Assembly (NCBI GenBank): GCA_025267735.1
Contig: CM046303.1
Span: forward strand, 55,011,403 to 55,075,402
Direction of reading: 5' to 3'
Origin: Mactra quadrangularis
Lineage: Eukaryota > Mollusca > Bivalvia > Venerida > Mactridae
DNA length: 64,000 bases
Under the pieces are notes generated by a model. The model did not search any database, was not told the DNA's origin, and was given only the letters and a program-made list of their open reading frames with translations. Within the stretch, counting starts at the first letter, position 1; every line of letters begins with the position of its first letter. The translations under genes and the position numbers were made by a program. Of the stretch, positions 5,791-42,800 are shown in pieces.

Positions 5791-7795
5791 GTAACGGAAA
5801 TTTTAAATTGATTATATAAGGTTAAAACATAGTCAAATCCACCAAGTCTTTAACTGAACCAACAAATGTGTTACTTTATAGTTGCATTTTATTTCTAAGT
5901 CAAATGGCTCACACGAATACAACATATTTTTTTCATATCATTTGTTCTATATAAATAATCAAAAAATACGACTAGTATAACAAACGCATTATTAATTAGA
6001 AAACTTGAATGCTTTTGTTCAAACAGATGACGTGGTTCAGTTGAAACATAAAACTAAGACACTGATTAAGAATGACAAGATCATAACTCAAAACAGCGCT
6101 TTTCCGCAAAAACAACATAGTAACGGAAATTTTGTTCACAGAGATATCTGCCACCTGGCATTATTTGATCTCTGCAATAATATTTAACAAAATCACGAGT
6201 ACATGATTTTAATATGTTCGTATCTTTTCAATTCAGTAAACTGATATACATGTATATATGATATAAAGAGGATATTGAATGGGTCCAGAGGAGTCATGGC
6301 CACTTACATGAGAAATAGATTGTAAGAGCATCTGACACAAAATCTATTGATACATTTATTTGTATAAAAGTGTGACATTGAGTTGGCATTGCTAACAATA
6401 AAGCTCTAGACCATACAATTTACGAATTTGTTTTCAATTTTTCGTTATATAATTCCATGTTTAGTCTTGACTCCCTTTTAGCGGGCCACTATTCAAATAT
6501 GTTGACCCCTGAGGCGGTGTCAATATTGAACCCATAGCAGGGGCTAAATTTGAAAAAAAGGTGGCTGACCTTTATTAAATGCATTGTGCAAAGTTAAAGA
6601 CTGATGGCTTTAATTTTTGTCAATACAATTTTAAGAGACTTATGACAGACGACGGACAAACATCAATCAGAATAGATCACATTGAACAGATCGTGCTCTG
6701 GCTCTAGTGAGCTATAATATAAAATCTGCTAAACACTATCGTTTTATGGTACTTGGTCTACTTGTTTGAGACTAATACGTGTATTTTATTAACCTTTGGT
6801 AAAATAGTATTGACTTGAAATCATTTTTAAACTTACAATGCTGTTTTATTACGGACAAAAGACATAAAATATCCGTTACCACATAGTAACGGAAATTTGG
6901 TACACTTATATTCTCTGTCTGTCGTATTTTAATAATTTCTTGAAGTAAATCAATATTTGAATTTAAAGCCATATTTGTGCTCGTAATTCATAATACACAA
7001 CGAGTTAATTTCAGCTCAACATATTACTTATATCGCAATTAATAAAAGAACTGTCAACTTCATAATTAAACTATTTCTTAATTTATCTAACTAACTCAAA
7101 AATGTGGTTTTTTTACCATGAAGCGTTCCTGAAGTCATTAGTGACATAAATATATGATGCACTGACTGGCGCAATGTCCCCACGAAACGTATATGACTGA
7201 TATTCCAAACATGGTAACGGAAATTTAAATCACGGAAATTTTAAATTCGTATTGAAATTACGTGGTTTGAGCTCTACAAAGTTACAAACGAAGAATTATT
7301 CGACCATCTATAAACAGTTATAGTCAATTGATGTATTTATCGTCATTATACCGTTTCAGTATAGCTGGTATTTTCAGCAGCACCGGTAACGGAAATTTTG
7401 CTTATTTACTTTTTATTGACCCCTTTTACATTTGTCTTTCATGTACTGTCATATATCATTCATACCAAAGGTTTTTGTTAATTCATTTAATAGTCAATGA
7501 AACTAAGATAACTTTTAGGCGTTCTTTATAACTCTGTGTTGAAATTTTGCTTTCCAATCCAGCTGTGGCAGATACGGTATCGGAAATTTTATGAAAAGTA
7601 TAAAGTCTGGCGACATGCACTCTGCATTAGATATTTCAAAAATGTCTGACATACTGTTCTACAAAGCCTTTTAAGTACAAATTTCAATTGTTTACTAATG
7701 CATTTGCACACAAATTTAACTCTTTCAGTGGCCGTGTTCGCTGCAATTTTATTGCAAACAACACAGGGGTGGACTGGCGACAGTAACGGAAATTT
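5791..7795 (+). repeat. Seven dispersed copies of gtaacggaaattt
   Basis: The 13-base motif gtaacggaaattt, or a one-base variant, occurs on the plus strand at 5791, 6120, 6886, 7214, 7386, 7577 (gtatcgg variant) and 7783. A truncated extra copy (cacggaaatttt) follows the one at 7214, and a reverse-strand relative (ccgttacc) lies near 6873. Flanking sequences are not obviously alike, so this is a conserved short motif in diverged DNA rather than a simple tandem repeat. Function unknown. Confidence 0.7.
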
Positions 7796-8785
7796 AAAAT
7801 AAGGGTCTAAAATGGCGGTTACGATTTAATCACTAATCCGATTTTTGTATTTTTTTTTACACAATCATTGGACATCTACTAGGTAATGGACGAAACACTA
7901 AAATTCATTTTCTTACTTACTAGCTGGGAGTTATGTAACATTTTGTCAAATGGACCTTCGTATTGAGAATGACCGTATAAACGAAGTGATTGCATTTCGT
8001 CCGTTATTAAAATTAGCGTAAACTAAGGGAGTACTGGTTAATCGATATACCGGTTAATATTGCAATACGAATTTTGATGGTTTTTAACCAGTTCGTTGTT
8101 TTTCTGAACTGGCTTTTCGTAGCTATGTGCCATATTGATTGTTTTATATCGGAATCTGAAATTTAAATGTTTGAAAAATGTTAAAATATGTTCAAATCTT
8201 GAAATAATCTTTTTATGGGCTATACGGGCGTTACCCGAGAAAGAAAGAGTGCAGCCCGCATTAACCGTTATAAGGATGTGGCTTCAACTATGATCAAAAG
8301 CGGATGTTCATTGAGTAACAAGAATTTGCTAACAACCAATCACAATGATTATTTCATGATATGTACTTACAGTTGTATATCTCAATGGTTAAACAGAACA
8401 GAACAGAGAAAACCAATGACTTGCATTTTTTATTAATACTGATTAAGAAAAAGCGACTATTTCAATGCAATTTTGAAATTTGAAATATCTATAAAAGGTC
8501 GAGTATCTACTTCAAACCAGCTGTTTGTGACGTCGGGAAATCTTAATCTGATTAGGAGCGGTTCCTTTGGAATTTGGTAGAGCTATGCAAGACTAATCTA
8601 ACTCGATGTTGATAAAAAACATTGTTGACTAGTTTTGCACTGCATCATTTAATTTCTTTCCGTGTATTGTAAAGGAATAGTACTTTGTTGATACAACCGT
8701 AGGTATGACATTTATGTTCAGTGAGTCATATTTTCAATGGAAGGAGTCTAAACTAAGTGCTACGTACATCAACATTTCTTACAGA
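7796..8785. other. Intergenic DNA, no gene seen
   Basis: A 73-codon open frame at 8215-8436 has no recognisable domain. Nothing else stands out before the large element begins. Confidence 0.5.
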
Positions 8786-8794
8786 CTATCTCCT
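8786..8794. repeat. Left 9-bp target-site duplication of the giant element
   Basis: ctatctcct directly precedes the terminal inverted repeat (atgaacgtaaagttgg...). The same nine bases directly follow the other end at 26744-26752. Confidence 0.88.
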
Positions 8795-9115
8795 ATGAAC
8801 GTAAAGTTGGCAGACTCAGCAGACACAGCAGACACAGCAGAAGGAACGATCCTTCTGCTGTGTCTGCTGGCAGAAGGATAAATCTACAGCAGAAGGAATG
8901 ATCCTTCTGCTGTGTCTGCTGGCAGAAGGATACATTTACAGCAGAAGGATCAATCTTTCTGCTGGGTCTGCTGGCAGAAGGATTGAATTATAACAGAAAG
9001 ATGTGTCTGTTGGCAGAAAGATTTTATAATAACAGAAAGATGTGTCTGCTGGCAGAAGGATTAAACAACAACAGAATCAATCTTTCGGCCACGTCTGTTG
9101 GCAGAATAATTGAAT
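8795..9115 (+). repeat. Left outer terminal repeat block
   Basis: After the 16-base end sequence come repeats about 55-60 bp long that contain 'cagcagaaggat' facing 'atccttctgctg' with 'tgtctgctggcagaagg' between them, so each repeat is itself partly palindromic. The repeats become more diverged inward (ggcagaaagatt, ggcagaataatt). The mirror block at 26431-26743 differs by only a few bases that I can see. Confidence 0.88.
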
Positions 9116-12100
9116 TATAATTTCAAGCTTCAATTTAAGCAAAACATGTGATATTATGCATCATTTTAAAGCTGATAGTTATGAAAATATTTTGATGAGT
9201 ACATTTTGAACAGTAAATAAAGAATAAGGGCCTGGTGAGTAAACAAAACAGGCCCATTTCGAATGTGAATTTTGTGTTCGACTGACATCCTTCTGCTGTT
9301 ATTTAACACATGTTTTATTAATCATTTCATCTATCTGTTCACAAAATCAAATTTTATATAGAACAAGCTTTAATCTGGTATATATATGTGCGATAAACTC
9401 TATTTAATTGCGACAAATTATACGTTAATATATCGAGTACGAAAATTCTCAGTGCGGAAGTTCGGTTCGATATTTTCATTAAAAAAGTGCCAATACATGC
9501 TATTTACCGAGTCTTATTTTAAGCCACATTTAAGACAAAATATGCGATATTATGCATCATTTTAAAGCTTATACATAGAAAAAGGTTTAGACAGGTCGAT
9601 TTTGAATTTTTGTAAAAGAATAACAACAAGACGAGTGTATAAAGTAGCCCTATTTTCGGACGTACATTTCGGTTTGAGTGACATCCTTCTGCTATAAATA
9701 AATACTCGTATTCTTAATTAATTTAAAAACTAAATCACAAAATCAAACTGGCAATAGAATAAGCTTTCTTTTGATGTATATATGAGTGAATAACTCGACT
9801 TAATTTGGACAAAATTTATGTTTATATGTCAAGTTCGTAAATTCACCCGACCACAGATTGGTTTGATTTTTTCATTGAAATGTGCGAAAACATGCTAATT
9901 ACCGAGTCTTATTGTAAGCCTAAATTTAGGCAAAACATGTGATATTATGCATCATTTTAAAGCTGATTGTTGTAAAAATGTTTTGACAGGTACATTTTGA
10001 ACAGCAAATAAATAATAAGGGCCTGGTGAGTAAACAAAACAGGCCCATTTTCGAATGTGAATTTTGTGTTCGACTGACATCCTTCTGCTGTTATTTAACA
10101 CATGTTTTATTAATCATTTCATCTATCTGTTCACAAAATCAAATTTTATATAGAACAAGCTTTAATCTGGTATAAAGATGTGCGATAAACTCTATTTAAT
10201 TGCGACAATTTGAACGTTAATTTATCGAGTACGAAAATTCTCAGTGCGGAAGTTCGGTTCGATATTTTCATTAAAAAAGTGCCAATACATGCTATTTACC
10301 GAGTCTTATTTTAAGCCACAATTAAGACAAAATATGCGATATTATGCATCATTTTAAAGCTTATACATAGAAAAAGGTTTAGACAGGTCGATTTTGAATT
10401 TTTGTAAAAGAATAACAACAAGACGAGTGTATAAATTAGCCCTATTTTCGGACGTACATTTCGGTTTGAGTGACATCCTTCTGCTATAAATAAATACACG
10501 TATTCTTAATTAATTTAAAAACTAAATCACAAAATCAAACTGGCAATAGAATAAGCTTTCTTTTGATGTATATATGAGTGAATAACTCGACTTAATTTGG
10601 ACAAAATTTATGTTTATATGTCAAGTTCGTAAATTCACCCGACCACAGATTGGTTTGATTTTTTCATTGAAATGTGCGAAAACATGCTAATTACCGAGTC
10701 TTATTGTAAGCCTAAATTTAGGCAAAACATGTGATATTATGCATCATTTTAAAGCTGATTGTTGTAAAAATGTTTTGACGGGTACATTTTGAACAGCAAA
10801 TAAATAATAAGGGCCTGGTGAGTAAACAAAACAGGCCCATTTTCGAATGTGAATTTTGTGTTCGACTGACATCTTTCTGCTGTTATTTAACACATGTTTT
10901 ATTAATCATTTCATCTATCTGTTCACAAAATCAAATTTTATATAGAACAAGCTTTAATCTGGTATAAAGATGTGCGATAAACTCTATTTAATTGCGACAA
11001 ATTATACGTTAATATATCGAGTACGAAAATTCTCAGTGCGGAAGTTCGGTTCGATATTTTCATTAAAAAAGTGCCAATACATGCTATTTACCGAGTCTTA
11101 TTTTAAGCCACATTTAAGACAAAATATGCGATATTATGCATCATTTTAAAGATTATACATAGAAAAAGGTTTAGACAGGTCGATTTTGAATTTTTGTAAA
11201 AGAATAACAACAAGACGAGTGTATAAAGTAGCCCTATTTTCGGACGTACATTTCGGTTTGAGTGACATCCTTCTGCTATAAATAAATACACGTATTCTTA
11301 ATTAATTTAAAAACTAAATCACAAAATCAAACTGGCAATAGAATAAGCTTTCTTTTGATGTATATATGAGTGAATAACTCGACTTAATTTGGACAAAATT
11401 TATGTTTATATGTCAAGTTCGTAAATTCACCCGACCACAGATTGGTTTGATTTTTTCATTGAAATGTGCGAAAACATGCTAATTACCGAGTCTTATTGTA
11501 AGCCTAAATTTAGGCAAAACATGTGATATTATGCATCATTTTAAAGCTGATTGTTGTAAAAATGTTTTGACGGGTACATTTTGAACAGCAAATAAATAAT
11601 AAGGGCCTGGTGAGTAAACAAAACAGGCCCATTTTCGAATGTGAATTTTGTGTTCGACTGACATCCTTCTGCTGTTATTTAACACATGTTTTATTAATCA
11701 TTTCATCTATCTGTTCACAAAATCAAATTTTATATAGAACAAGCTTTAATCTGGTATAAAGATGTGCGATAAACTCTATTTAATTGCGACAATTTGAACG
11801 TTAATTTATCGAGTACGAAAATTCTCAGTGCGGAAGTTCGGTTCGATATTTTCATTAGAAAAGTGCCAATACATGCTATTTACCGAGTCTAATTTTAAGC
11901 CACAATTAAGACAAAATATGCGATATTATGCATCAAATTAAAGCTTATACATAGAAAAAGGTTTAGACAGGTCGATTTTGAATTTTTGTAAAAGAATAAC
12001 AACAAGACGAGTGTATAAAGTAGCCCTATTTTCGGACGTACATTTCGGTTTGAGTGACATCCTTCTGCTATAAATAAATACACGTATTCTTAATTAATTT

Positions 12101-15100
12101 AAAAACTAAATCACAAAATCAAACTGGCAATAGAATAAGCTTTCTTTTGATGTATATAAGAGTGAATAACTCGACTTAATTTGGACAAAATATATGTTTA
12201 TATATCAAGTTCGTAAATTCACCCGACCACAGATTGGTTTGATTTTTTCATTGAAATGTGCGAAAACATGCTAATTACCGAGTCTTATTGTAAGCCTTAA
12301 TTTAGGCGAAACATGTGATATTATGCATCATTTTAAAGCTGATTGTTGTAAAAATGTTTTGACGGGTACATTTTGAACAGCAAATAAATAATAAGGGCCT
12401 GGTGAGTAAACAAAACAGGCCCATTTTCGAATGTGAATTTTGTGTTCGACTGACATCCTTCTGCTGTTATTTAACACATGTTTTATTAATCATTTCATCT
12501 ATCTGTTCACAAAATCAAATTTTATATAGAACAAGCTTTAATCTGGTATAAAGATGTGCGATAAACTCTATTTAATTGCGACAAATTATACGTTAATATA
12601 TCGAGTACGAAAATTCTCAGTGCGGAAGTTCGGTTCGATATTTTCATTAAAAAAGTGCCAATACATGCTATTTACCGAGTCTTATTCTAAGCCACAATTA
12701 AGACAAAATATGCGATATTATGCATCATTTTAAAGCTTATACATAGAAAAAGGTTTAGACAGGTCGATTTTGAATTTTTGTAAAAGAATAACAACAAGAC
12801 GAGTGTATAAATTAGCCCTATTTTCGGACGTACATTTCGGTTTGAGTGACATCCTTCTGCTATAAATAAATACACGTATTCTTAATTAATTTAAAAACTA
12901 AATCACAAAATCAAACTGGCAATAGAATAAGCTTTCTTTTGATGTATATATGAGTGAATAACTCGACTTAATTTGGACAAAATTTATGTTTATATGTCAA
13001 GTTCGTAAATTCACCCGACCACAGATTGGTTTGATTTTTTCATTGAAATGTGCGAAAACATGCTTATTACCGAGTCTTATTGTAAGCCTAAATTTAAGCA
13101 AAACATGGGATATTATGCATCATTTTAAAGCTGATTGTTATGAAAATGTTTTGACGGGTACATTTTGAACAGCAAATAAATAATAAGGGCCTGGTGTGTA
13201 AACAAAACAGGCCCATTTTCGAATGTGAATTTTGTGTTCGACTGACATCCTTCTGCTGTTATTTAACACATGTTTTATTAATCATTTCATCTATCTGTTC
13301 ACAAAATCAAATTTTATATAGAACAAGCTTTAATCTGGTATAAAGATGTGCGATAAACTCTATTTAATTGCGACAAATTATACGTTAATATATCGAGTAC
13401 GAAAATTCTCAGTGCGGAAGTTCGGTTCGATATTTTCATTAAAAAAGTGCCAATACATGCTATTTACCGAGTCTTATTCTAAGCCATAATTAAGACAAAA
13501 TATGCGATATTATGCATCATTTTAAAGCTTATACATAGAAAAAGGTTTAGACAGGTCGATTTTGATTTTTTGTAAAAGAATAACAACAAGACGAGTGTAT
13601 AAAGTAGCCCTATTTTCGGACGTACATTTCGGTTTGAGTGACATCCTTCTGCTATAAATAAATACACGTATTCTTAATTAATTTAAAAACTAAATCACAA
13701 AATCAAACTGGCAATAGAATAAGCTTTCTTTTGATGTATATATGAGTGAATAACTCGACTTAATTTGGACAAAATTTATGTTTATATGTCAAGTTCGTAA
13801 ATTCACCCGACCACAGATTGGTTTGATTTTTTCATTAAAATGTGCGAAAACATGCTAATTACCGAGTCTTATTGTAAGCCTAAATTTAGGCAAAACATGT
13901 GATATTATGCATCATTTTAAAGCTGATTGTTGTAAAAATGTTTTGACGGGTACATTTTGAACAGCAAATAAATAATAAGGGCCTGGTGAGTAAACAAAAC
14001 AGGCCCAATTTCGAATGTGAATTTTGTGTTCGACTGACATCCTTCTGCTGTTATTTAACACATGTTTTATTAATCATTTCATCTATCTGTTCACAAAATC
14101 AAATTTTATATAGAACAAGCTTTAATCTGGTATAAAGATGTGCGATAAACTTTATTTAATTGCGACAATTTGAACGTTAATATATCGAGTACGAAAATTC
14201 TCAGTGCGGAAGTTCGGTTCGATATTTTCATTAAAAAAGTGCAAATACATGCTATTTATCGAGTCTTATTTTAAGCCACAATTAAGACAAAATATGCGAT
14301 ATTATGCATCATTTTAAAGCTTATACATAGAAAAAGGTTTAGACAGGTTGATTTAGAATTTTTGTAAAAGAATTACAGCAAGACGAGTGTATAAAGTAGC
14401 CCTATTTTCGGACGTACATTTCGGTTTGAGTGGCATCCTTCTGCTATAAATAAATACACGTATTTTTAATTTATTTAAAATTTGAATCACAAAATCAAAC
14501 TGGCAATAGAATAAGCTTTCTTTTAATGTATAAATGAGTGAATAACTCGACTTAATTTGGACAAAATATATGTTTTTATGTCAAGTTCGTAAATTTACCC
14601 GACCACAGTTTGGTTTGATCTTTTCATTGAAATGTGCGAAAACATGCTAATTACCGAGTCATATTGTAAGCCTAAATTTCGGCAAAACATGTGATATAAT
14701 GCATCATTTTAAAGCTGATTGTTGTAAAAATGTTTTGACGGGTACATTTTGAACAGTAAATAAATAATAAGGGCCTGGTGAGTAAACAAAACAGGCCCAT
14801 TTTCGAATGTGAATTTTGTGTTCGACTGACATCCTTCTGCTGTTATTTAACACATGTTTTATTAATCATTTCATCTATCTGTTCACAAAATCAAATTTTA
14901 TATAGAACAAGGTTTAATTTGGTATATAGATGTGCGATAAACTCTATTTAATTGCGACAAATTATACGTTAATATATCGAGTACGAAAATTCTCAGTGCG
15001 GAAGTTCGGTTCGATATTTTCATTAAAAAAGTGCAAATACATGCTATTTACCGAGTCTTATTCTAAGCCACAATTAAGACAAAATATGCGATATTATGCA

Positions 15101-16600
15101 TCATTTTAAAGCTTATTACATAGAAAAAGGTTTAGACAGGTCGATTTAGAATTTTTGTAAAAGAATTACAGCAAGACGAGTGTATAAAGTAGCCCTATTT
15201 TCGGACGTACATTTCGGTTTGAGTGACATCCTTCTGCTATAAATAAATACACGCATTTTTAATTTATTTAAAATTTGAATCACAAAATCAAACTGGCAAT
15301 AAAATAAGCTTTCTTTTAATGTATAAATGAGTGAATAACTCGACTTAATTTGGACAAAATATATGTTTTTATGTCAAGTTCGTAAATTAACCCGACCACA
15401 GTTTGGTTTGATTTTTTCATTGAAATGTGCGAAAACATGCTAATTACCGAGTCTTATTGTAAGCCTAAATTTAGGCTAAACATGTGATATTATGCATTAT
15501 TTTAAAGCTGATTGTTGTAAAAATGTTTTGACGGGTACATTTTGAACAGCAAATAAATAATAAGGGCCTGGTGAGTAAACAAAACAGGCCCATTTTCGAA
15601 TGTGAATTTTGTGTTCGACTGACATCCTTCTGCTGTTATTTAACACATGTTTTATTAATCATTTCATCTATCTGTTCACAAAATCAAATTTTATATAGAA
15701 CAAGCTTTAATCTGGTATATAGATGTCCGATAAACTCTATTTAATTGCGACAAATTATACGTTAATATATCGAGTACGAAAATTCTCAGTGCGGAAGTTC
15801 GGTTCGATATTTTCATTAAAAAAGTGCAAATACATGCTATTTACCGAGTCTTATTTTAAGCCACAATTAAGACAAAATATGCGATATTATGCATCATTTT
15901 AAAGCTTATACATAGAAAAAGGTTTAGACAGGTCGATGTAGAATTTTTGTAAAAGAATAACAGCAAGACGAGTGTATAAAGTAGCCCTATTTTCGGACGT
16001 ACATTTCGGTTTGAGTGACATCCTTCTGCTACAAATAAATACACGTATTTTAAATTAATTTACCAACCAAATTACAAAATCTGACTGGCAATAGAATAAG
16101 CTTTCTTTTGGTGTATAAATGAGTGAATAACTCGTCTTAATTTGGACAAAATATATGTTTATATATCAAGTCTGAAATTCGCCCGACCACAGTTTGGTTT
16201 GATTTTTTCATTGAAATGTGCGAAAACATGCTAATTACCGAGTCTTATTTTAAGCCACAATTTTGACAAAACTTGTGATATTATGCATCATTTTAAAGCA
16301 GATTGTTTGAAAAATGTTTTGACGGGTACATTTTGAACAGTAAATAAATAATAAGGGCCTGGTGAGTGAACAAAACAGGCCCATTTTCGAATGTGAATTT
16401 TGTGTTCGATTGACATCCTTCTGCTGTTAATAAAAACATGTTTTATTAATTATTTCACCAATCTATTCACAAAATCAAATTTTATATAGAACAAACTTTG
16501 TTTTGGTGTATAAATGTGAGATAAACTCATTTTAATTGCGACAAAATATATGTATTTAAATATATCAAGTACGAAAATTCTCAGTACGAAAGTTCGGTTC
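9116..16600 (+). repeat. Left arm: array of 792-bp dimeric repeats
   Basis: Units begin with ccttctgctgttattt at 9289, 10081, 10873, 11665, 12457, 13249, 14041, 14833, 15626 and 16427. Spacing is exactly 792 for most units and 793 and 801 for the last two. Each unit has two related 396-bp monomers, A (starts ccttctgctgtt) and B (starts ccttctgctata, for example 9685). They share the order 'ccttctgct', 'cacaaaatcaaa', 'agaa(c/t)aagctt', 'taccgagtctta', 'gatattatgcatcattttaaagct' and 'gacat'. Divergence increases towards the centre (14.0-16.6 kb). A 62-codon open frame recurs on the minus strand only because the unit recurs. Confidence 0.92.
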
Positions 16601-16860
16601 GAATTACTCTCACATTTGTGTACCAAAAGAAAGCTTGTTCTATATATAATTTGTTTTTGTGAATAGATTGGTGAAGTAATTTTATAAAAGATGTATTTAT
16701 TAATAGCAGAAGGATGTCGATCTGTCGAACAAAAGTTTACATTTGAAAATGGGCCTGTTTTGTCCACTCGCAGTGCCCTTATTGTTGACTTATTTTTCAA
16801 AATGTACCCGTGAAAACATTTTCCAAACAATCAGCCTGAAAATGATGAAATTCTGACAGT
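16601..16860 (-). repeat. Orientation switch: inverted monomer at the inner end of the left arm
   Basis: At about 16600 the left-arm monomer stops mid-unit. The sequence continues as monomer material in the opposite orientation (agaaagcttgttctat, tagcagaaggatgtc, gggcctgttttgt). The block ends in 'tactgctgtactgctgtactgccg' type repeats near 16866-16890. Confidence 0.75.
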
Positions 16861-19845
16861 AAGGCTTTACTGCTGTACTGCTGTACTGCCGTTTCTGCTG
16901 TCTTCACATACATGCACTAATTGACACTTATTTTTTTTAAATTGAAAAATGTTCACAAGAAAACTGAGGACCTTAAAAGATTCTCCTTAAAAATCACAGT
17001 GATTGTTACTTTTGGTTTTAGATACAAATGAGTACAAAGTTATTTTCTTCTTGATCAAAGGTTGAAGCACATAGTGCAGAAACCTCAATCTAAAAGCAAA
17101 ACAATATTTGTACATGAAATACATTTATTTCTATGGTTGCGGGGATCCAAACAGAGTGCAAGTACCGAGTAATTACCCCGGTTATTTTTAACGGGGTAAT
17201 TGGATCTTTAGGATTGGAGATCCTTTTCTATTTATTAAGTTTAAAGCCAAATTTTGACATATTGATGTAGAAATCAAAACTATTTAGGGAAATAAACTTT
17301 AATTGATGAAATTGTATTAACTATATATACTTATAAAGGTTTTTTAAGATTAATATTCCAGCTATTTTTATTTCTAGAGTGGAATATAATGTAAACAAAG
17401 TGTGAAAAATCTAAAATATTGAGAATTTTAGTTCTGAAATTTGAAATTCTTATGTTTTTAATATTGTTAATGTCATTTGGTTTATATTACAATGGTTGCA
17501 TTGATACTATTATGTTTAATGACATCTTTATATGTCTCCAATCCATAAAGAGTGATTTTTTTGTAAAAATTTAAGGTTTTTAACACTAATATGCAGTCTT
17601 TTATTGAAGGAGATGGGCAAAAAATTGTCCTTTTGTCAAAAATATCATACTTTTCAGTATTTAGTATATGTAAGGTACATGTAGTAATTAAATAGAAGAA
17701 TTAAAATAATTTGAAAATGGTGTAAAATTCAACAATTTGAACTGTTTAAATAATAAAATTGGTGTTTCCCTAACCCGGAAAGTTATTCAGAATGATGTTT
17801 TTAAAGAATTTGACCCTGTTTTGTTGAATAATTTTTGGTCTTAGGTCTATGTATTTTGCTATTTAGTGAAAATCACTTGAATTTTAAACAAAACTAGTGG
17901 ATAACAGTTTATATAAGAGGTTTAAATTACCTCATTGTTATAGTTTTATAGTTTGTTATGTGAAAAATAGCCATTTAAATGGTATTTTCTGCATTATGGT
18001 GTTATATATACAGATTTCATTGAAACTCTTGAGGTACTTGCACTTATATTGGGTGATATAAATGAAATAGACTGAGAATGGGGGCTCTAGATCTTATCGG
18101 TCATTTGGCAATCAACTATATAAGTTTCTAGAGCCATATAGACTGAACTCCTGACCGCCTTGCTTGTATCTAGTAGGATCTGGATGTCAAAGGGGACATC
18201 ACTGAAACCCATTGTTGCCTTTAGGAGCTCAATTTTGGCTCCAAATGGTGTAGGAGTATTTTGGAAGCTCCTGTGGCAGAATGAACCAGTCCCAATGATG
18301 GCATTCAGGTTTTTTAAATTTTTTTGGTTTGAGCCCTGGCCCAGAATTTAACAGCCTGCCCAGACCTGAAAATGAGTGGCATGACTCCTGCCTCTGCTTC
18401 TAAAAGATGCTGTGGGGGTGGTTGGTAAGGCCCTTAGAGCAATTCTCAATGCTTAATTCTGTATAATATTTAGTCTTTGGAGTTGGGAGGGGCTAGTTAC
18501 AGAATAAATTTCAGCTCCATATTCATTTTTTGATCTTGTGAGAGATTTGTACATTAGTAATAGACTGTTTTAATCAGTATTCTAAAAAGTTTAAAATTTT
18601 ACAAAAAAATCCGGGCACGTTAAAAGATTCCTTGTAAAAAATCACATTGACTGGTACCTTTAATTTTTGTAACAAAAGATTAAAAGTTACACACAATGTA
18701 GTGTACTTCTTGAATGAAATCTTCTGTACAGAGCACAAAAGACTCAATCCATAAGTACTATAGAAAAAGTTAAACAATAGTATTGTATTATTAATTGCGG
18801 GGATCCCAAAATAGTGCGAATACCAAGTAACTACCCCGGTTTATTAAACATATCCGGGGTGATTGGATCTTATGGACCGGAGAATATATTATATATATAT
18901 ATTAGTATACATATGTCAGTTGTTGACATATTTTTGAAAACTCTATAATATTTTCTTAAGAGTTATTCATTTTGATATTTTTTTTCAGTATTGGAACAGA
19001 AAATAAACTTTAATAGGTGTTCCAATAGATTTTTTGTTGATTTTTTAGTAAAAATATAATGTGAAATTCTAAAACCCAAGACATTTTAGCTCTAATTTAA
19101 AAGAATTTTGTCATTAGGTATATTAATGAAGTTTTTGATATATATATTACTGTGTTTAAGATGGTAATTTCAGGTCTTTTGTTTCTTTTACAGGTTCCTA
19201 ACCCATAATTAGTTTAAGAAATTGTTAAATTAAAGGTTTTAAAGCCTTTTAATAGGCTAAATTGTATAAAATTTGTATTAAAATAGACAAAATAATGTCT
19301 TTTTGTAGTAAAAAACATAAATTTCCACATTATATGATTAAAATATATATATTCCTGTATAGTAGGAATTAAATAATGTAAAATAATTTTAAGATTCAAC
19401 AGATTTGTTGAATATTTGTTAAATTTATGGGTTTTAGTAACCCGGTAAGTCTGGTAATAGTGTTTATCTGGGTAAAAAGACCCTGATAATGTATATTTAA
19501 GTAGGATTTGCATCCTAGGATATATTTAATTACAATGAATTTAAGGCATTTTTAATTTTGCTAGTAAATAGCATTAAAATTAGAGGTTTTGGGTACCTCA
19601 GAATTGATTTTAAGTCTTTTCAGGACTTTCAAATAAGTTTAATTAGATGTTTTAACTGCATTTTGGTGTTTTTATGCAGTGTTTATGTAACTCATATGGT
19701 ATTCGCACTTAATTGGGTGGAATAAATGAAATAGACTGAATTTGTGGGATCTAGATTTTGTCTTTCATTTGACAGTCTACTATGTAGATCTCTAGAGCCC
19801 TATAGACTGAGGTTCTAACTGCCTTGCTAGGATCACCACCAAATA
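16861..19845. repeat. Central region with two diverged copies of a second module
   Basis: The first copy starts near 16950 and the second near 18590, in the same orientation. Matching landmarks are 'ttaaaagattc(t)cctt' (16975 / 18620), 'gcggggatcc' followed by a ggttat/ggttta hairpin segment (about 17140 / 18797), 'aatgaaatagactga' (about 18062 / 19726) and a 'ctctagatc ... tctagagcc' imperfect hairpin (about 18085-18135 / 19748-19800). Offsets are about 1.64-1.66 kb. Copy 1 carries an extra tail (about 18165-18560) absent after copy 2. No credible open reading frame; the longest candidates (63, 67, 99 and 102 codons) show no known domain. Confidence 0.7.
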
Positions 19846-22800
19846 ACACCAAAATAAATCTTATTCTATTGTTAGTCTTGATTTTGCGAATAGGTTGGTA
19901 AATTAATAAATAAATCGTGCATTTATTAATAGCAGAAGGGTGGCAGTCAAACCCAAATTTATATCCGAAAACAGGGCTAACTTCTACACTCGCCATGCTG
20001 TTATTCTGTATTATTTTTTTCGCAAATAGACATTTCAAAACATTTTTAATTTGATGCATAATGTGTAAGGTTTAAGTCGAAACATTCTCGAAAATTGCTC
20101 TCGAAAAAAGACCTGTTACTAGTCATTTCACAAAAAAGAATCATTTAGAAAAAACTCAAACATCGAACCAGTTAGTATCGTTCGGCCTTATAAAAATCGA
20201 GTTTTGTATGTTAATATATATCAAAAGAAAGCTTGTTTTATCTTCAGTCTAATTATGTGTATGGATTTGTAAAATACATAGTCAAACATGTTTTTGTTTA
20301 CAGCACAAGGATGTCAGTCGAACACAAATTCACAATAAGAAATTGGCCTGTTTTGTACACTCGACAGGCCCTTATTGTTTATTTATAGTTCTAAATTTAC
20401 CCGTCAAAACATTTTCCAAACAATCAGCTTGAAAATGATGCATAAAAGCACATGTTTTAACTTAGTTGTGGTTTAAAATAAGACTCGGTAGTGTGCATGT
20501 ATTTGCACATTTTTTGAAAATATCGAACCGACCTTTCGTACTGAGAATTTTCGTACTTGACATATTTAAATACATATATTTTGTCGCAATTAAAATGAGT
20601 TTATCGCACATCTATATACCAAATTAAAGCTTGTTCTACATAAAATTTTATTTTGTGAACAGATAGATGAAACGATTAATAAAACATGTGTTTATTAACA
20701 GCAGAAGGATGTCAGTCGAACACAAAATTCACATTCGAAAACGGGCCTGTTTTGTTTACTTACCAGGCCCTTATTATTTATTCACTGTTCAAAATGTACC
20801 CGTAAAAACACTTTCACAACAATCAGCTTTAAAATGATGCATAATATCACATGTTTTGCCAACATTTAGGCTTACAATATGACTCGGTAATTAGCATGTT
20901 TTCGCACATTTCAATGAAAAAATCAAACCAAACTGTGGTCGGGTAAATTTACGAACTTGACATAAAAACATATATTTTGTCCAAATTAAGTCGAGTTATT
21001 CACTCATTTATACATTAAAAGAAAGCTTATTCTATTGCCAGTTTGATTTTGTGATTCAAGTTTTAAATAAATTAAAAATACGTGTATTTATTTATAGCAG
21101 AAGGATGTCACCCAAACCGAAATGTACGTCCGAAAATAGGGCTACTTTATACACCCGTCTTGCTGTTATTCTTTTACAAAAATTCAAAATCGACCTGACT
21201 AAACCTTTTTCTATGTATAAGCTTTAATATGATGCATAATATCGCATATTTTGTCTTAATTGTGGCTTAAAATAAGACTCGGTAAATAGCATGTATTGGC
21301 ACTTTTCTAATGAAAATATCGAACCGAACTTCCGCACTGAGAATTTTCGTACTCGATATATTAACGTTCAAATTGTCGCAATTAAATAGAGTTTATCGCA
21401 CATCTTTATACCAGATTAAAGCTTGTTCTATATAAAATTTGATTTTGTGAACAGATAGATGAAATGATTAATAAAACATGTGTTAAATAACAGCAGAAGG
21501 ATGTCAGTCGAACACAAAATTCACATTCGAAAATGGGCCTGTTTTGTTTACTCACCAGGCCCTTATTATTTATTTACTGTTCAAAATGTACCCGTCAAAA
21601 CATTTTTACAACAATCAGCTTTAAAATGATGCATAATATCACATGTTTTGCCTGAATTTAGGCTTACAATATGACTCGGTAATTAGCATGTTTTCGCACA
21701 TTTCAATGAAAAAATCAAACCAAACTGTGGTCGGGTAAATTTACGAACTTGACATAAAAACATATATTTTGTCCAAATTAAGTCGAGTTATTCACTCATT
21801 TATACATTAAAAGAAAGCTTATTCTATTGCCAGTTTGATTTTGTGATTCAAATTTTAAATAAATTAAAAATACGTGTATTTATTTATAGCAGAAGGATGT
21901 CACTCAAACCGAAATGTACGTCCGAAAATAGGGCTACTTTATACACTCGTCTTGCTGTAATTCTTTTACAAAAATTCTAAATCGACCTGTCTAAACCTTT
22001 TTCTATGTATAAGCTTTAAAATGATGCATAATATCGCATATTTTGTCTTAATTGTGGCTTAAAATAAGACTCGGTAAATAGCATGTATTTGCACTTTTTT
22101 AATGAAAATATCGAACCGAACTTCCGCACTGAGAATTTTCGTACTCGATATATTAACGTATAATTTGTCGCAATTAAATAGAGTTTATCGCACATCTATA
22201 TACCAAATTAAACCTTGTTCTATATAAAATTTGATTTTGTGAACAGATAGATGAAATGATTAATAAAACATGTGTTAAATAACAGCAGAAGGATGTCAGT
22301 CGAACACAAAATTCACATTCGAAAATGGGCCTGTTTTGTTTACTCACCAGGCCCTTATTATTTATTTGCTGTTCAAAATGTACCCGTCAAAACATTTTTA
22401 CAACAATCAGCTTTAAAATGATGCATAATATCACATGTTTTGCCTAAATTTAGGCTTACAATAAGACTCGGTAATTAGCATGTTTTCGCACATTTCAATG
22501 AAAAAATCAAACCAAACTGTGGTCGGGTAAATTTACGAACTTGACATAAAAACATATATTTTGTCCAAATTAAGTCGAGTTATTCACTCATTTATACATT
22601 AAAAGAAAGCTTATTCTATTGCCAGTTTGATTTTGTGATTCAAGTTTTAAATAAATTAAAAATACGTGTATTTATTTATAGCAGAAGGATGTCACCCAAA
22701 CCGAAATGTACGTCCGAAAATAGGGCTACTTTATACACCCGTCTTGCTGTTATTCTTTTACAAAAATTCAAAATCGACCTGACTAAACCTTTTTCTATGT

Positions 22801-25800
22801 ATAAGCTTTAAAATGATGCATAATATCGCATATTTTGTCTTAATTGTGGCTTAAAATAAGACTCGGTAAATAGCATGTATTGGCACTTTTCTAATGAAAA
22901 TATCGAACCGAACTTCCGCACTGAGAATTTTCGTACTCGATATATTAACGTTCAAATTGTCGCAATTAAATAGAGTTTATCGCACATCTATATACCAGAT
23001 TAAAGCTTGTTCTATATAAAATTTGATTTTGTGAACAGATAGATGAAATGATTAATAAAACATGTGTTAAATAACAGCAGAAGGATGTCAGTCGAACACA
23101 AAATTCACATTCGAAAATGGGCCTGTTTTGTTTACTCACCAGGCCCTTATTATTTATTTGCTGTTCAAAATGTACCCGTTAAAACATTTTTACAACAATC
23201 AGCTTTAAAATGATGCATAATAACACATGTTTTCCCTAAATTTAGGCTTACAATAAGACTCGGTAATTAGCATGTTTTCGCACATTTCAATGAAAAAATC
23301 AAACCAATCTGTGGACGGGTGAATTTACGAACTTGACATATAAACATAAATTTTGTCCAAATTAAGTCGAGTTATTCACTCATATATAATCAAAAGAAAG
23401 CTTATTCTATTGCCAGTTTGATTTTCTGATTTAGTTTTTAAATTAATTAAGAATACGTGTATTTATTTATAGCAGAAGGATGTCACACAAACCGAAATGT
23501 ACGTCCGAAAATAGGGCTACTTTATACACTCGTCTTGTTGTTATTGTTTTACAAAAAATCAAAATCGACCTGTCTCAACCTTTTTCTATGTACAATCTTT
23601 AAAATGATGCATAATATCGCATATTTTGTCTTAATTGTGGCTTAGAATAAGACTCGGTAAATAGCATGTATTGGCACTTTTTTAATGAAAATATCGAACC
23701 GAACTTCCGCACTGAGAATTTTCGTACTCGATATATTAACGTATAATTTGTCGCAATTAAATAGAGTTTATCGCACATCTATATACCAGATTAAAGCTTG
23801 TTCTATATAAAATTTGCTTTTGTGAACAGATAGATGAAATGATTAATATAACATGTGTTAAATAATAGCAGAAGGATGTCAGTCGAACACAAAATTCACA
23901 TTCGAAAATGGGCCTGTTTTGTTTACTCACCAGGCCCTGATCATTTATTTGCTGTTCAAAATGTACCCGTCAAAACATTTTTACAACAATCAGCTTTAAA
24001 ATGATGCATAATATCACATGTTTTGCCTAAATTTAGGCTTACAATAAGACTCGGTAATTAGCATGTTTTCGCACATTTCAATGAAAAAATCAAACCAATC
24101 GGTGGTCGGGTGAATTTACGAACTTGACATAAAAACATATATTTTGTCCAAATTAAGTCGAGTTATTCACTCATTTATACATTAAAAGAAAGCTTATTCT
24201 ATTGTTAGTTTGATTTTGTGATTCAAATTTTAAATAAATAAAAAATACGTGTATTTATTTATAGCAGAAGGATGCCACTCAAACCGAAATGTACGTCCGA
24301 AAATAGGGCTACTTTATACACCCGTCTTGCTGTAATTCTTTTACAAAAATTCTAAATCAACCTGTCTAAACCTTTTTCTATGTATAAGCTTTAAAATGAT
24401 GCATAATATCGCATATTTTGTCTTAATTGTGGCTTAAAATAAGACTCGATAAATAGCATGTATTTGCACTTTTTTAATGAAAATATCGAACCGAACTTCC
24501 GCACTGAGAATTTTCGTACTCGATATATTAACGTTCAAATTGTCGCAATTAAATAAAGTTTATCGCACATCTTTATACCAGATTAAAGCTTGTTCTATAT
24601 AAAATTTGATTTTGTGAACAGATAGATGAAATGATTAATAAAACATGTGTTAAATAACAGCAGAAGGATGTCAGTCGAACACAAAATTCACATTCGAAAA
24701 TGGGCCTGTTTTGTTTACTCACCAGGCCATTATTATTAATTTGCTGTTCAAAATGTACCCGTCAAAACATTTTTACAACAATCAGCTTTAAAATGATGCA
24801 TAATATCACATGTTTTGCTTAAATTTAGGCTTACAATAAGACTCGGTAATTAGCATGTTTTCGCACATTTTAATGAAAAAATCAAACCAATCTGTGGTCG
24901 GGTGAATTTACGAACTTGACATATAAACATAAATTTTGTCCAAATTAAGTCGAGTTATTCACTCATATATACATCAAAAGAAAGCTTATTCTATTGCCAG
25001 TTTGATTTTGTGATTTAGTTTTTAAATTAATTAAGAATACGTGTATTTATTTATAGCAGAAGGATGTCACTCAAACCGAAATGTACGTCCGAAAATAGGG
25101 CTACTTTATACACTCGTCTTGTTGTTATTCTTTTACAAAAAATCAAAATCGACCTGTCTAAACCTTTTCTATGTATAAGCTTTAAAATGATGCATAATAT
25201 CGCATATTTTGTCATAATTGTGGCTTAGAATAAGACTCGGTAAAAAGCATGTATTGGCACTTTTCTAATGAAAATATCGAACCGAACTTCCGCACTGAGA
25301 ATTTTCGTACTCGATATATTAACGTATAATTTGTCGCAATTAAATAGAGTTTATCGCACATCTATATACCAGATTAAAGCTTGTTCTATATAAAATTTGA
25401 TTTTGTGAACAGATAGATGAAATGATTAATAAAACATGTGTTAAATAACAGCAGAAGGATGTCAGTCGAACACAAAATTCACATTCGAAATGGGCCTGTT
25501 TTGTTTACTCACCAGACCCTTATCATTTATTTGCTGTTCAAAATGTACCCGTCAAAACATTTTCATAACTATCAGCTTTAAAATGATGCATCATATCACA
25601 TGTTTTGCCAAAATTTAGGCTTACAATAAGACTCGGTAATTAGCATGTTTTCGCACATTTCAATGAAAAAATCAAACCAATCTGTGGTCGGGTGAATTTA
25701 CGAACTTGATATATAAACATAAATTTTGTCCAAATTAAGTCGAGTTATTCACTCATATATACATCAAAAGAAAGCTTATTCTATTGCCAGTTTGATTTTG

Positions 25801-26430
25801 TGATTTAGTTTTTAAATTAATTAAGAATACGTGTATTTATTTATAGCAGAAGGATGTCACCCAAACCGAAATGTACGTCCGAAAATAGGGCTACTTTATA
25901 CACTCGTCTTGTTGTTATTCTTTTACAAAAATTCAAAATCGACCTGTCTAAACCTTTTTCTATGTATAAGCTTTAAAATGATGCATAATATCGCATATTT
26001 TGTCTTAAATGTGGCTTAAAATAAGACTCGGTAAATAGCATGTATTTGCACTTTTTTAATGAAAATATCGAACCGAACTTCCGCACTGAGAATTTTCGTA
26101 CTCGATATATTAACGTATAATTTGTCGCAATTAAATAGAGTTTATCGCACATCTATATACCAAATTAAAGCTTGTTCTATATAAAATTTGATTTTGTGAA
26201 CAGATAGATGAAATGATTAATAAAACATGTGTTAAATAACAGCAGAAGGATGTCAGTCGAACACAAAATTCACATTCGAAATGGGCCTGTTTTGTTTACT
26301 CACCAGGCCCTTATTCTTTATTTACTGTTCAAAATGTACTCATCAAAACATTTTCATAACTATCAGCTTTAAAATGATGCATAATATCACATGTTTTGCT
26401 TAAATTGAAGCTTGAAATTATAATTCAATT
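19846..26430 (-). repeat. Right arm: the 792-bp array in inverse orientation
   Basis: The same A/B dimers as the left arm, read on the minus strand. On the plus strand the landmark cagcagaaggatgtcagtcgaacac recurs near 20700, 21492, 22284, 23076, 23869, 24660, 25449 and 26241, about 792 apart. The inner 19850-20700 part is strongly decayed and the outer units are close to those of the left arm. The arm is about 0.9 kb shorter than the left one. Confidence 0.9.
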
Positions 26431-26743
26431 ATTCTGCCAACAGACGTGGCAGAAAGATTGATTCTGTTGTTGTTTAATCCTTCTGCCAGCAGACACATCT
26501 TTCTGTTATTATAAAATCTTTCTGCCAACAGACACATCTTTCTGTTATAATTCAATCCTTCTGCCAACAGACCCAGCAGAAAGATTGATCCTTCTGCTGT
26601 AAATGTATCCTTCTGCCAGCAGACACAGCAGAAGGATCATTCCTTCTGCTGTAGATTTATCCTTCTGCCAGCAGACACAGCAGAAGGATCGTTCCTTCTG
26701 CTGTGTCTGCTGTGTCTGCTGAGTCTGCCAACTTTACGTTCAT
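26431..26743 (-). repeat. Right outer terminal repeat block
   Basis: Mirror image of 8795-9115, including the same order of variant repeats. Visible differences are single bases (for example cttctgccacg versus cttcggccacg, and gggtctgttgg versus gggtctgctgg). Confidence 0.88.
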
Positions 26744-26752
26744 CTATCTCCT
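26744..26752. repeat. Right 9-bp target-site duplication
   Basis: ctatctcct directly follows the end sequence ...actttacgttcat and is identical to 8786-8794. Confidence 0.88.
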
Positions 26753-39800: not shown

Positions 39801-42800
39801 AGTCTTAAGGTAACAATTATAAAACTATAAAAGTAAGACAAAACAAAGATAAAGGATTTCTTATATAGATAACAGAAACATCAACAAAAGATAAATCATG
39901 CAAAACATAAAATAAAATATATAATAAATCAGCAGGATTTCAATATTTACAGTATGACCTGAGAAATCTAAACATTGCTGGGATCAAACATGAACATTCA
40001 ATATCCTGAAATTCCTGAATTTAGTGAGTTCAACAGCTTTTAAAGTGCATATGAAAAGAATGTCGGTCCTAAAAACCCTGAACTTCAGGACCAATTTTCA
40101 AAATTCCTGAAATTCCCTAACTTCAACAGCTACTATTGTTCATTTGAAAAAAAACAAAAACATTTTCTCTGATACCAGAAATCCTTATTTCCTTATTTCC
40201 AGGACCTCTAACTTGTCACACATGATATTCTAATTTTATAACTTTCTGGATTTAATAATGATATTTTGCATTCTAATATCCAAAATGGGATAACCAAAAA
40301 TTTATTGAAAATTTCCGAAAAATCCTGAATTTTTCACAGTTTCAATTTCTCAGGTGATACTGTACAGGTAAAAATGTTAACATTATGCATAATTCATATG
40401 GCTTCCTATGACTTTGGTAATATTTCTTATAGCTTCATATTTCTTACTCTCTCAACAGTTTGAACTATATAAATAGGATGAGGCCAATAATGTTTATCTA
40501 AAAACATGTTGTTTAAAAACAACAAGAATGGGGAGGGGGTGCAAACAAAGTTCATACATACTCAGAAATATCTAGAAAGCACTAAATTCTTTGTTTATAA
40601 GTTCTTCCCTAAAAAAAACTATTGTAAAGTAAGGTAAATTCAGTTCATGGTTTATTTCATAACTACAAGCTATAAAATGACTTTGGTTCTTTTTTTCTGA
40701 TCATAAAACATTGGAATGTATGAATGGAATAACTATCTCAGTATTAACAATGCAAAAAACAATGTTAGTGGTAATTATGTGTGGAACAATGGATCATCTT
40801 CAGGCACCGTTGGCTACATTACTCTCAAAGATTATAATAAACAAAAGGTAAATATGCAATTTTGTTGGTTTTCAAAGAATCTTTAAGCGCAAATAACTTT
40901 GTAATGAAAATCAAGTCAACTTCAGTAAATCAGCTGTTTTTCTGGTGTTTAACTGTTCAATACTGACGGAATTTCAACAAAAAGAAGTTAAGTTAAAAGA
41001 AAAAGATACAATATAATACAATACTAAACAACTGAGGAATAATACATAACAAATCATGTATGTTATATACAGAAAATAAATTCTTATCATTTTCCAAATA
41101 AAAATACAACAAAAGAGCTTAGGAGTTTAAGTAAATGTCAAAAGGCACGTTATTCAACATAAACTGAAAGTTACAAATACTTAACTTTTTACCCACAGCT
41201 AAAATAGCATAGCATAGCACCATACATGTCTAAATGAAATACATTTCAGATAATAAAAAGTCAGGGACAAAAATAAATACAGGTACTAAAAAATCTAAAA
41301 AATCTAAATGACTACAATCCAATCCTATCCTACATCTACATTTTCATATGAAACATAATATTATTGAAGACTTAATTTTAACCAAGAGCATGGTAAGGCA
41401 TTACCACAGCTAGTCTCATTAAGTCAGACCTTAAATATGCTACCTATAGTAGAAAGTCGGCAACCTACAGATGAGAAAATTTAGTGGAGCATAAAATAAT
41501 GAGACTGAGCTTAGTCTACCCTTACCTGTCTTAAAATTAAGACGGTTCTACCCTGACAATTAATGGAATTCTAAGGAGACTGTTCATGATCTGTGCTGAC
41601 TCAAAACATGGTTCTATCCTAACAATTATTAGAACGCTATAAATGAATCAAAATAAACAAGAAAATTAACACACGGATACGGACAAAACAAAAAATAATT
41701 GAAAATAAATATTATAAAGTAAAGGTTGGCAGGAATAGTGTCACAATGTAAACAAGAGCTCCGCTGGGCGGGGCATTATACGGCCGTGTGCAGTCCATGC
41801 TGTGTTCTATCTCATATGAAGTTCCTGTGACCTTGACCAATGACCCCGGGATCTCAGAATAGGTCCCATCCTTAACTGGAGGGCTATCCAAAGCAAAGAT
41901 TTTAAGAACCTAGGTACAGCCATGGTTGAGTTATCACCAGCACAAAGTTTTCCCATACAAACTTCCAGTGACCTTGACCCTGGGGCCTCAGAACCAAAAG
42001 TTTTCACCCTTGACCCAAAGAGTATTGATACATAAAATTTGGTGATCTTGGATAAAGTTGGTTGTTGGAAAAGGTTTTTCCTCATGATTTCCTTGTGACT
42101 TTGACCCAGGGGCCTAAAACCAAAGGGGCATATGCTAGACATTTAGGCTACCCATAAAAAATTTGGTAAACCTGAGGTACAATCATTATTGAGTTATTGT
42201 CTGGAAAATGTTTCAATAGAAATTAAGTCCCAGTGACTTTGACTTTTGACCCTGGGGTCTCCAAATCAAAAGGGAACATCCTCTACCAAAGTGCTATCAA
42301 CACATTACTCCTTGACAAATGGGCTGATCCACATAAAATTTGGTTAACCTAGGTACAATCATTGTTTAGTTATTGTCCAGACAGGGTTTTCCATATGATG
42401 CCCCTGTGACCATGACCTTTGACCCAGGGGCCCCATAACCAATAGGGCATATCCTTGACACATGGACTACTCTCACATAAAATTTGGAGAATATAGGTAC
42501 ATTGGTGGTTCAGTTATTGTCTGGACAAGTTTTTCATTGTTTGCCATTTTTACTTTATTAACATATTGATTAAACATTTGAAGTCACTGCTTGGTAATTT
42601 GATATCTTATGGTTGAAGGTTTAAACTTGACCCAGGAGCCCCAAAACCAATAGGGAACATCCTTGACACAAGGGCTACTCTCACATGAAATTTGGTGAAC
42701 CTAGGTGCAGTCATTGTTGAGTTATTGTCCGGACAATGTTTTTCAATATGATGCCCCTGTGACCTTGACCTTTGACCCAGAGGCCCCAAAACCATTAAGG

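Follow-up and report, generated by a model that had tools for sequence, protein, structure and literature searches.

A 17.9-kb foldback element with satellite arms, and its family, in the genome of the bivalve Mactra quadrangularis

A 64,000-nucleotide stretch of the genome of Mactra quadrangularis (GCA_025267735.1, contig CM046303.1, positions 55,011,403 to 55,075,402 of the forward strand; here called the window) holds a foldback element of 17,949 bp (8795–26743), in which long inverted arms of tandem repeats enclose a core and a 9-bp target duplication adjoins both ends. We consider it highly probable that this element belongs to a foldback family of non-autonomous, cut-and-paste transposons that was recently active, with a transposase of the Mutator superfamily (Mutator-like elements, MULEs) as its likeliest mover. 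The strongest single result comes from two other copies, on contig C6 of the same genome, which are separated by 46,905 bp. Each has a length of 14,375 bp; they differ from each other at 2 positions and carry the core at an equal offset. These twins have different target duplications (GAAAAATCC and CATGTACTT) and different flanks; arms and core therefore moved together, having been jointly copied to a new site very recently.

Structure of the element in the window

The two ends of the element are identical over 176 bp, and the 9-mer CTATCTCCT directly adjoins each of them, an agreement that two unrelated 9-mers would show by chance at about 1e-5 given the window composition. The order from outside to inside is terminal domain, array of alternating units, turning point, 247 bp of array already in the right-hand orientation, core, right array and inverted terminal domain (Table 1). 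Array orientation flips at 16600/16601 and the core sits inside the right-oriented part. The inverted arms are 95.8% alike across 6.5 kb, and a denatured strand of the element would be expected to snap back on itself. The terminal domain of 330 bp contains 9-, 52- and 39-bp subrepeats. It also holds three near-palindromes, each 26 bp long and of the form CAGCAGAAGGAACGATCCTTCTGCTG, the first of which is symmetrical at 24 of 26 positions. The element thus has the build of a foldback element, that is, long inverted repeats holding tandem subrepeats.

The arms in the window consist of two 396-bp unit types, A and B, in strict alternation. The A consensus is identical to the B consensus at 284 of 397 positions; the longest runs common to both are GATATTATGCATCATTTTAAAGCT (24 bp), TTACCGAGTCTTATT (15 bp) and TCACAAAATCAAA (13 bp), and the shared run ATCCTTCTGCT measures 11 bp, or 15 bp counting the preceding TGAC. 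With at most one mismatch allowed, the motif AGCAGAAGGAT has 57 occurrences in the element, at steps of about 396 bp in the arrays, and is absent from the remaining 46 kb of the window; because longer shared runs exist, it is one of several boxes shared by A and B and not the longest. A 198-bp half-unit inside the 396-bp unit was considered and gave no significant match. A comparison of a 15-bp unit motif with viral_contigs (79 stretches) was not used, the motif being too short to inform.

The core holds two direct copies about 1.66 kb apart, which are 68–85% alike in matching blocks. No open reading frame of 130 amino acids or more is present in the element (the longest has 126), and all 15 stop-to-stop frames of at least 48 amino acids that overlap the core were compared with Pfam, the best match reaching only E 0.11. 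Joined short pieces of the core, which covered parts of five of the six frames, gave E 0.13 at best. With no Pfam match better than E 0.11 among the 15 frames, the reading of the core as a decayed gene was rejected. A structured RNA was also rejected: Rfam returned nothing at its gathering scores (two weak matches, E 2.7 and 3.1), and when six strands of conserved core blocks were folded, five gave folds that shuffled sequences equalled (z −1.25 to 0.30), the fold of 17130–17240 on the plus strand reaching z −1.89 with 8 of 200 shuffles equally good. The core may simply be carried along by the element.

These results bear on an earlier note on this DNA, drawn up from the letters alone. Its statement that identical 9-mers abut matching ends is confirmed at the same coordinates, the match being exact over 176 bp, and its statement that coding content is missing agrees with the lack of any recognisable coding content. 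Its description of the arms as long inverted repeats made of a 792-bp array, 792 bp being the length of one A/B pair, needs one amendment: the two halves are not simple mirror images.

A dispersed family and its movement

The window's own genome assembly (979 Mb, 447 contigs) was searched with pieces of the element. Its first 26 bp have 298 exact matches (145 on the plus and 153 on the minus strand), and the backwards pattern has none. At least 166 matches were obtained with the first 200 bp (best 40 of 843 candidates scored), and at least 40, all of at least 97% identity, with a 1.2-kb piece of the core (best 40 of 225 candidates scored); a 30-mer from the core occurs exactly at 80 places on contigs C1–C4 and C6–C19. 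This search of the host assembly with the end sequence had been proposed in the earlier note, which took the element to be a single one; 298 exact ends and 80 core places instead make it a member of a dispersed family. A 20-bp end had no match in viral_contigs or genome_contigs.

Pairing was analysed for the 100 ends listed of the 298, from C1 to C8:37.2 Mb, among which there are 29 adjacent plus/minus pairs closer than 60 kb. Twenty of these pairs span 7.8–38 kb and every one contains the core (19 by the exact 30-mer and the one on C5 by alignment); of the other nine, eight measure between 225 bp and 5.8 kb and the ninth measures 58 kb. The 12.6-kb copy on C5 was taken as a candidate autonomous copy because the exact core 30-mer is absent from it, and was rejected when the core and a 3.3-kb insertion were found inside, with no long frame. 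Two triplets of ends on C8 (18855628, 18855812, 18856705 and 33554245, 33554429, 33555322) have the same spacings of 184 and 893 bp and lie 14.7 Mb apart, which suggests that a copy was rearranged and that this altered copy then underwent duplication or movement.

Perfect 9-bp target duplications were found at 28 of the 38 end pairs examined, in 28 different sequences. They flank all nine of the giant copies compared in full (E0–E8; 16,967–27,003 bp), 17 of 20 further pairs, a 5,833-bp copy without the core, and one (L115) of seven short copies of 225–2,065 bp. The other three of the 20 further pairs are C6:31.77, which matches at 6 of 9 positions, and C1:36.57 and C1:26.42, which have no duplication and stand outside the list of clear pairs; clear pairs are perfect in 17 of 18 cases (12.6–37.9 kb). 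A 7,868-bp copy matches at 8 of 9 positions, and the short copies L110–L114 and L116 have no duplication. As a control, 380 mismatched left/right pairings were made from the 20 pairs, and none came within one mismatch. The giants contain no N, and their joined flanks (760–991 bp) are mutually dissimilar at E 1e-5. The 28 perfect duplications are 71% AT, compared with 67% in the window flanks, and have no strong consensus. Position 1 is G or C in 16 of 28 and position 9 in 15 of 28, the middle being AT-rich, a weak sign of a symmetric target preference. The six short copies with both 26-bp ends and no duplication are perhaps recombinant or abortively repaired, and are comparable to the chimeric copies reported for Galileo (PMC3573991).

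Mobility of the kind expected of a foldback element is evident from the 28 duplications and the C6 twins, which together bear out the earlier proposal that an entire satellite block moved as one transposon. From the clean duplications at both outer ends we infer that the larger copies likewise moved whole. The nine giants are 95.8–97.4% identical to the twins in the best single stretch. Their cores, present in all nine, are 98.1–99.7% identical over ungapped columns and fall into two clear groups (E0, E3, E7 and E1, E4, E8) and a looser one (E2, E5, E6; 99.0–99.2%).

In the 18 arms of the nine giants we counted 324 units (157 A and 167 B). An arm has 10–35 full units, the number being unequal between the two arms of a copy, and measures 4.9–14.4 kb, nested insertions included; some arms are divided by such insertions, and the A/B alternation is interrupted by a few units beside the core or an insertion. 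Nearest relatives were determined after 14 diverged units had been dropped (1 of 157 A, 13 of 167 B), with 60 label shuffles as the control. Of the 156 A and 154 B units left, 67.8 and 58.3 had their nearest relative in their own arm (shuffle means 8.6 and 8.5, maxima 21.1 and 17.1), and 17.9 and 23.9 had it in the other arm of the same element (means 9.1 and 9.3, maxima 17.0 and 16.8); homogenisation is therefore mainly within an arm and weakly between arms. In their first 1.1 kb, arms are on average 99.0% alike within an element and 98.4% between different elements. Between the two arms in the window, A units equidistant from both ends show no excess likeness (11.9 versus 11.1 differences on average), and B units differ less when compared at offsets 0 and 1 (12.1 and 10.9 versus 16.3 differences). 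Because B units become less alike with growing distance within an arm, this offset pattern is explained by outer and inner B subtypes; mirror copying of the arms possibly makes some contribution to B-unit likeness in the window.

Frames of at least 130 amino acids occur in five of the nine giants (E2, E3, E5, E6, E7), within or overlapping stretches unlike the window arms and core. Those in E2 and E7 resemble parts of reverse transcriptase genes, as judged by eye only, and the stretches concerned in E3 and E6 are nested elements. The one in E3 (C15:21969621–21988851; element positions 9600–14555) is a 4,956-bp foldback with arms of 27-bp repeats, lying between 9-bp repeats, TTTATTTGC. The one in E6 (C9:66589810–66615222; element positions 6830–12292) is a 5,463-bp insertion with 141-bp inverted repeats that contain 21-bp subrepeats; it is bordered by the 10-bp direct repeat GTTCGATTGA and represents a third family with tandem repeats in its terminal inverted repeats (TIRs).

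The mover and the rival explanations

In the mechanism that we propose, a transposase that is produced elsewhere and most likely belongs to the Mutator superfamily would bind putative palindromic CAGCAGAAGGAT sites in the terminal 330 bp, and perhaps also a putative half-site in each 396-bp unit; it would then pair the element ends, cut, and insert the element at a 9-bp staggered target. The arms would lengthen or shorten by unequal exchange or gap repair and would be kept alike mainly within one arm.

The earlier note had suggested looking for a MULE, FB or P-type transposase gene with the same ends. No transposase with these ends was found, and no MULE-domain match stands near the 80 cores or near any of the 100 ends listed; the remaining 198 ends were counted only, so C9–C19 were covered through the cores. 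No transposase-size frame is present in the 5.8- and 7.9-kb copies. MULE-domain matches number 43 in the genome at E 0.001 (74 candidates, all scored), and two of these loci were read. One (L117) was rejected as the mover, being unlike the family and lacking long inverted repeats across the 8.3 kb that were read. The other (L118) has an 852-amino-acid frame that matches the MULE domain, and an arm made of 27-bp repeats lies downstream of it; the end of this arm and its first 1.7 kb match the foldback nested in E3 at 82%. The stretch read shows the gene beside this one arm, and no left end of the L118 element was found in it. By analogy with this gene beside a foldback-type arm, a MULE is the likeliest mover of the giants, and a Mutator-type transposase probably moves the family.

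Several observations count against this interpretation. Ten of the 38 end pairs lack a perfect duplication (the 8 of 9 and 6 of 9 matches, six short copies and the two pairs outside the clear list), and 42 of the 100 ends listed lack an exact partner next to them. Copies E1–E8 were chosen as having both ends among the best-scoring in the 200-bp end search, and are therefore biased towards young, intact copies. When the first 1.1 kb are compared, only 8 of 18 arm ends have the opposite arm of their own element as closest relative, and one of these 8 is a tie. The shortest distance from a MULE match is 83 kb to one of the 80 cores and 66 kb to one of the 100 ends listed, and the match at L118 scored 29.0 bits, over the cut-off, in one scan and 23.0 against a cut-off of 27.6 in another.

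That no autonomous copy was seen would also suit a mover from another superfamily (P/Galileo, Merlin or hAT), and the foldback form is found in more than one superfamily, for example in the P-type Galileo (PMC3169594, PMC3573991). We judge such a mover unlikely: all 28 perfect duplications (imperfect pairs excluded) are of 9 bp, as opposed to 7 bp in Galileo (PMC3573991), and a transposase of that type is disfavoured because of this length. The same 9 bp lie within the 8–11 bp given for MULEs (PMC6446971) and are the commonest length in the MULE foldback Tm1 (PMC3169594), and a MULE gene stands beside a foldback-type arm in this very genome. It is improbable that a short foldback or miniature inverted-repeat element (MITE) inserted first and that satellite arms grew in place later, separately at each site. 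Short copies with the same ends do exist (225–2,065 bp), arm lengths vary between copies and between arms, and units cluster by arm; yet the C6 twins show that grown arms moved, and the same core is present in all 20 adjacent pairs of 7.8–38 kb. The twins refute growth in place as the only process. As a possible second process, the unequal exchange within arms that the earlier note had offered as its alternative fits the unit numbers and the same-arm likeness.

Long inverted satellite arms are difficult to assemble, and two of the short copies (L110 and L111) have common flanks, as would be expected if copies arose by segmental duplication or were assembly artefacts of palindromic repeats. This is nevertheless very improbable for the family, given nine giants without N, with nine different perfect duplications and mutually dissimilar flanks, and twins that differ in both flanks and duplications. 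Helitrons are not known to have terminal inverted repeats or target duplications, and both are present here. A Helentron- or Helitron-type carrier of satellite repeats is consequently the most far-fetched of the readings, although satellite-like arrays are carried by non-autonomous Helentrons in the oyster Crassostrea gigas (PMC7492417).

The preferred reading, a foldback family moved as whole units, has consequences for element length. DNA transposition is said to lose efficiency once the cargo exceeds about 6 kb, and in one large survey no Pack-MULE was longer than 7 kb (PMC6431247); arthropod MULEs measure 1.4–10 kb (PMC13359780). By contrast, a 14.4-kb unit without a recognisable gene has here moved whole recently, and end pairs as far as 37.9 kb apart still show clean 9-bp duplications. 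We suggest tentatively, and with more doubt than belief, that the putative half-site in each 396-bp unit makes a 5–14 kb arm load many transposases, offsetting the loss of efficiency with length. If so, the family would be a "transposable satellite": its arrays would grow under selection for recognition of the ends, and it would spread blocks of two-monomer satellite, as long as tens of kilobases, over the chromosomes. The family offers a direct system for studying how transposons overcome a length limit, and how two-monomer satellite arrays originate, disperse and become uniform away from the usual satellite blocks. It also implies that one insertion can account for an inverted satellite block at a dispersed site.

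Known systems and other features of the window

The earlier note knew of no element of this size and design; the design is found at smaller scale in Tetris of Drosophila virilis (PMC4079207). Tetris has TIRs of up to 1,735 bp with repeats of about 220 bp, three structurally complete copies, a variable middle and duplications of 8–10 bp; its authors suggested the Mutator superfamily (PMC4079207). Tetris repeats have escaped into ordinary satellites. By description Tetris resembles the present family in its flanking domain, tandem repeats in the TIR, middle part, lack of apparent coding content and varying repeat number between copies (PMC4079207). It differs in that the giants here have arms of 4.9–14.4 kb, 396-bp A/B units and a 3-kb conserved core at 80 or more places.

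Tm1 of root-knot nematodes is a Phantom-type Mutator/Foldback family with mostly 9-bp duplications (PMC3169594). Like the present family it has composite foldback-like TIRs of variable length and no clear target consensus, and its non-autonomous classes stand beside a transposase-bearing one; unlike here, a copy with transposase is known, and arms of satellite scale are not described in the available part of that paper (PMC3169594). Galileo also has long TIRs, in some subfamilies with variable tandem repeats, the longest being in non-autonomous copies (PMC3688188, PMC3573991), but its duplications are of 7 bp and its TIRs extend to about 1.26 kb (PMC3688188, PMC3573991). Secondary binding sites for the transposase lie in its tandem TIR repeats, and a length penalty may, in the authors' view, be compensated by having many such sites (PMC3688188). 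Rehavkus and Phantom are similar in their duplications (9 bp in Rehavkus; 8–10 bp in Phantom, where given) and in the minisatellite of Rehavkus and of an aphid Phantom, and differ in having a transposase and TIRs of 26–400 bp and 18–613 bp, respectively, or none (PMC6446971). In the open literature, searched by title and start of abstract, we found no foldback or MULE-type element this large with satellite arms, a scope within which subscription papers mostly, and Repbase wholly, did not fall. The family is a foldback architecture enlarged to satellite scale, the scale and the conserved core being new and the anatomy known from Tetris.

Table 1. Parts of the foldback element and its target duplications, in window coordinates
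Feature	Positions	Strand	Remarks
Left 9-bp target duplication, CTATCTCCT	8786–8794	.	Abuts the element
Left terminal (flanking) domain, 330 bp; near-palindromes at 8835, 8887, 8939	8795–9124	+	First 176 bp equal to right end
Left arm array, 18 full 396-bp units, A/B alternating	9125–16600	+	
Unit piece already in right-arm orientation	16601–16847	-	79.8% to right-arm unit
Core, 3.0 kb, two diverged direct copies	16848–19845	+	
Right arm array, 2 diverged units beside core, then 14 regular units	19846–26413	-	
Right terminal domain, inverted copy of left; near-palindromes at 26574, 26626, 26678	26414–26743	-	
Right 9-bp target duplication	26744–26752	.	

Elsewhere in the window, an array of 18 copies of an 85-bp unit with 98% matches occupies 58736–60264, and 145-bp tandem repeats, which also score at a 290-bp period, lie at 42627–44107. 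A TBC/RabGAP-like exon (4p17_A, E 1.1e-4) is located on the minus strand at 61622–62056 and belongs to what we take to be an SGSM3-like gene.

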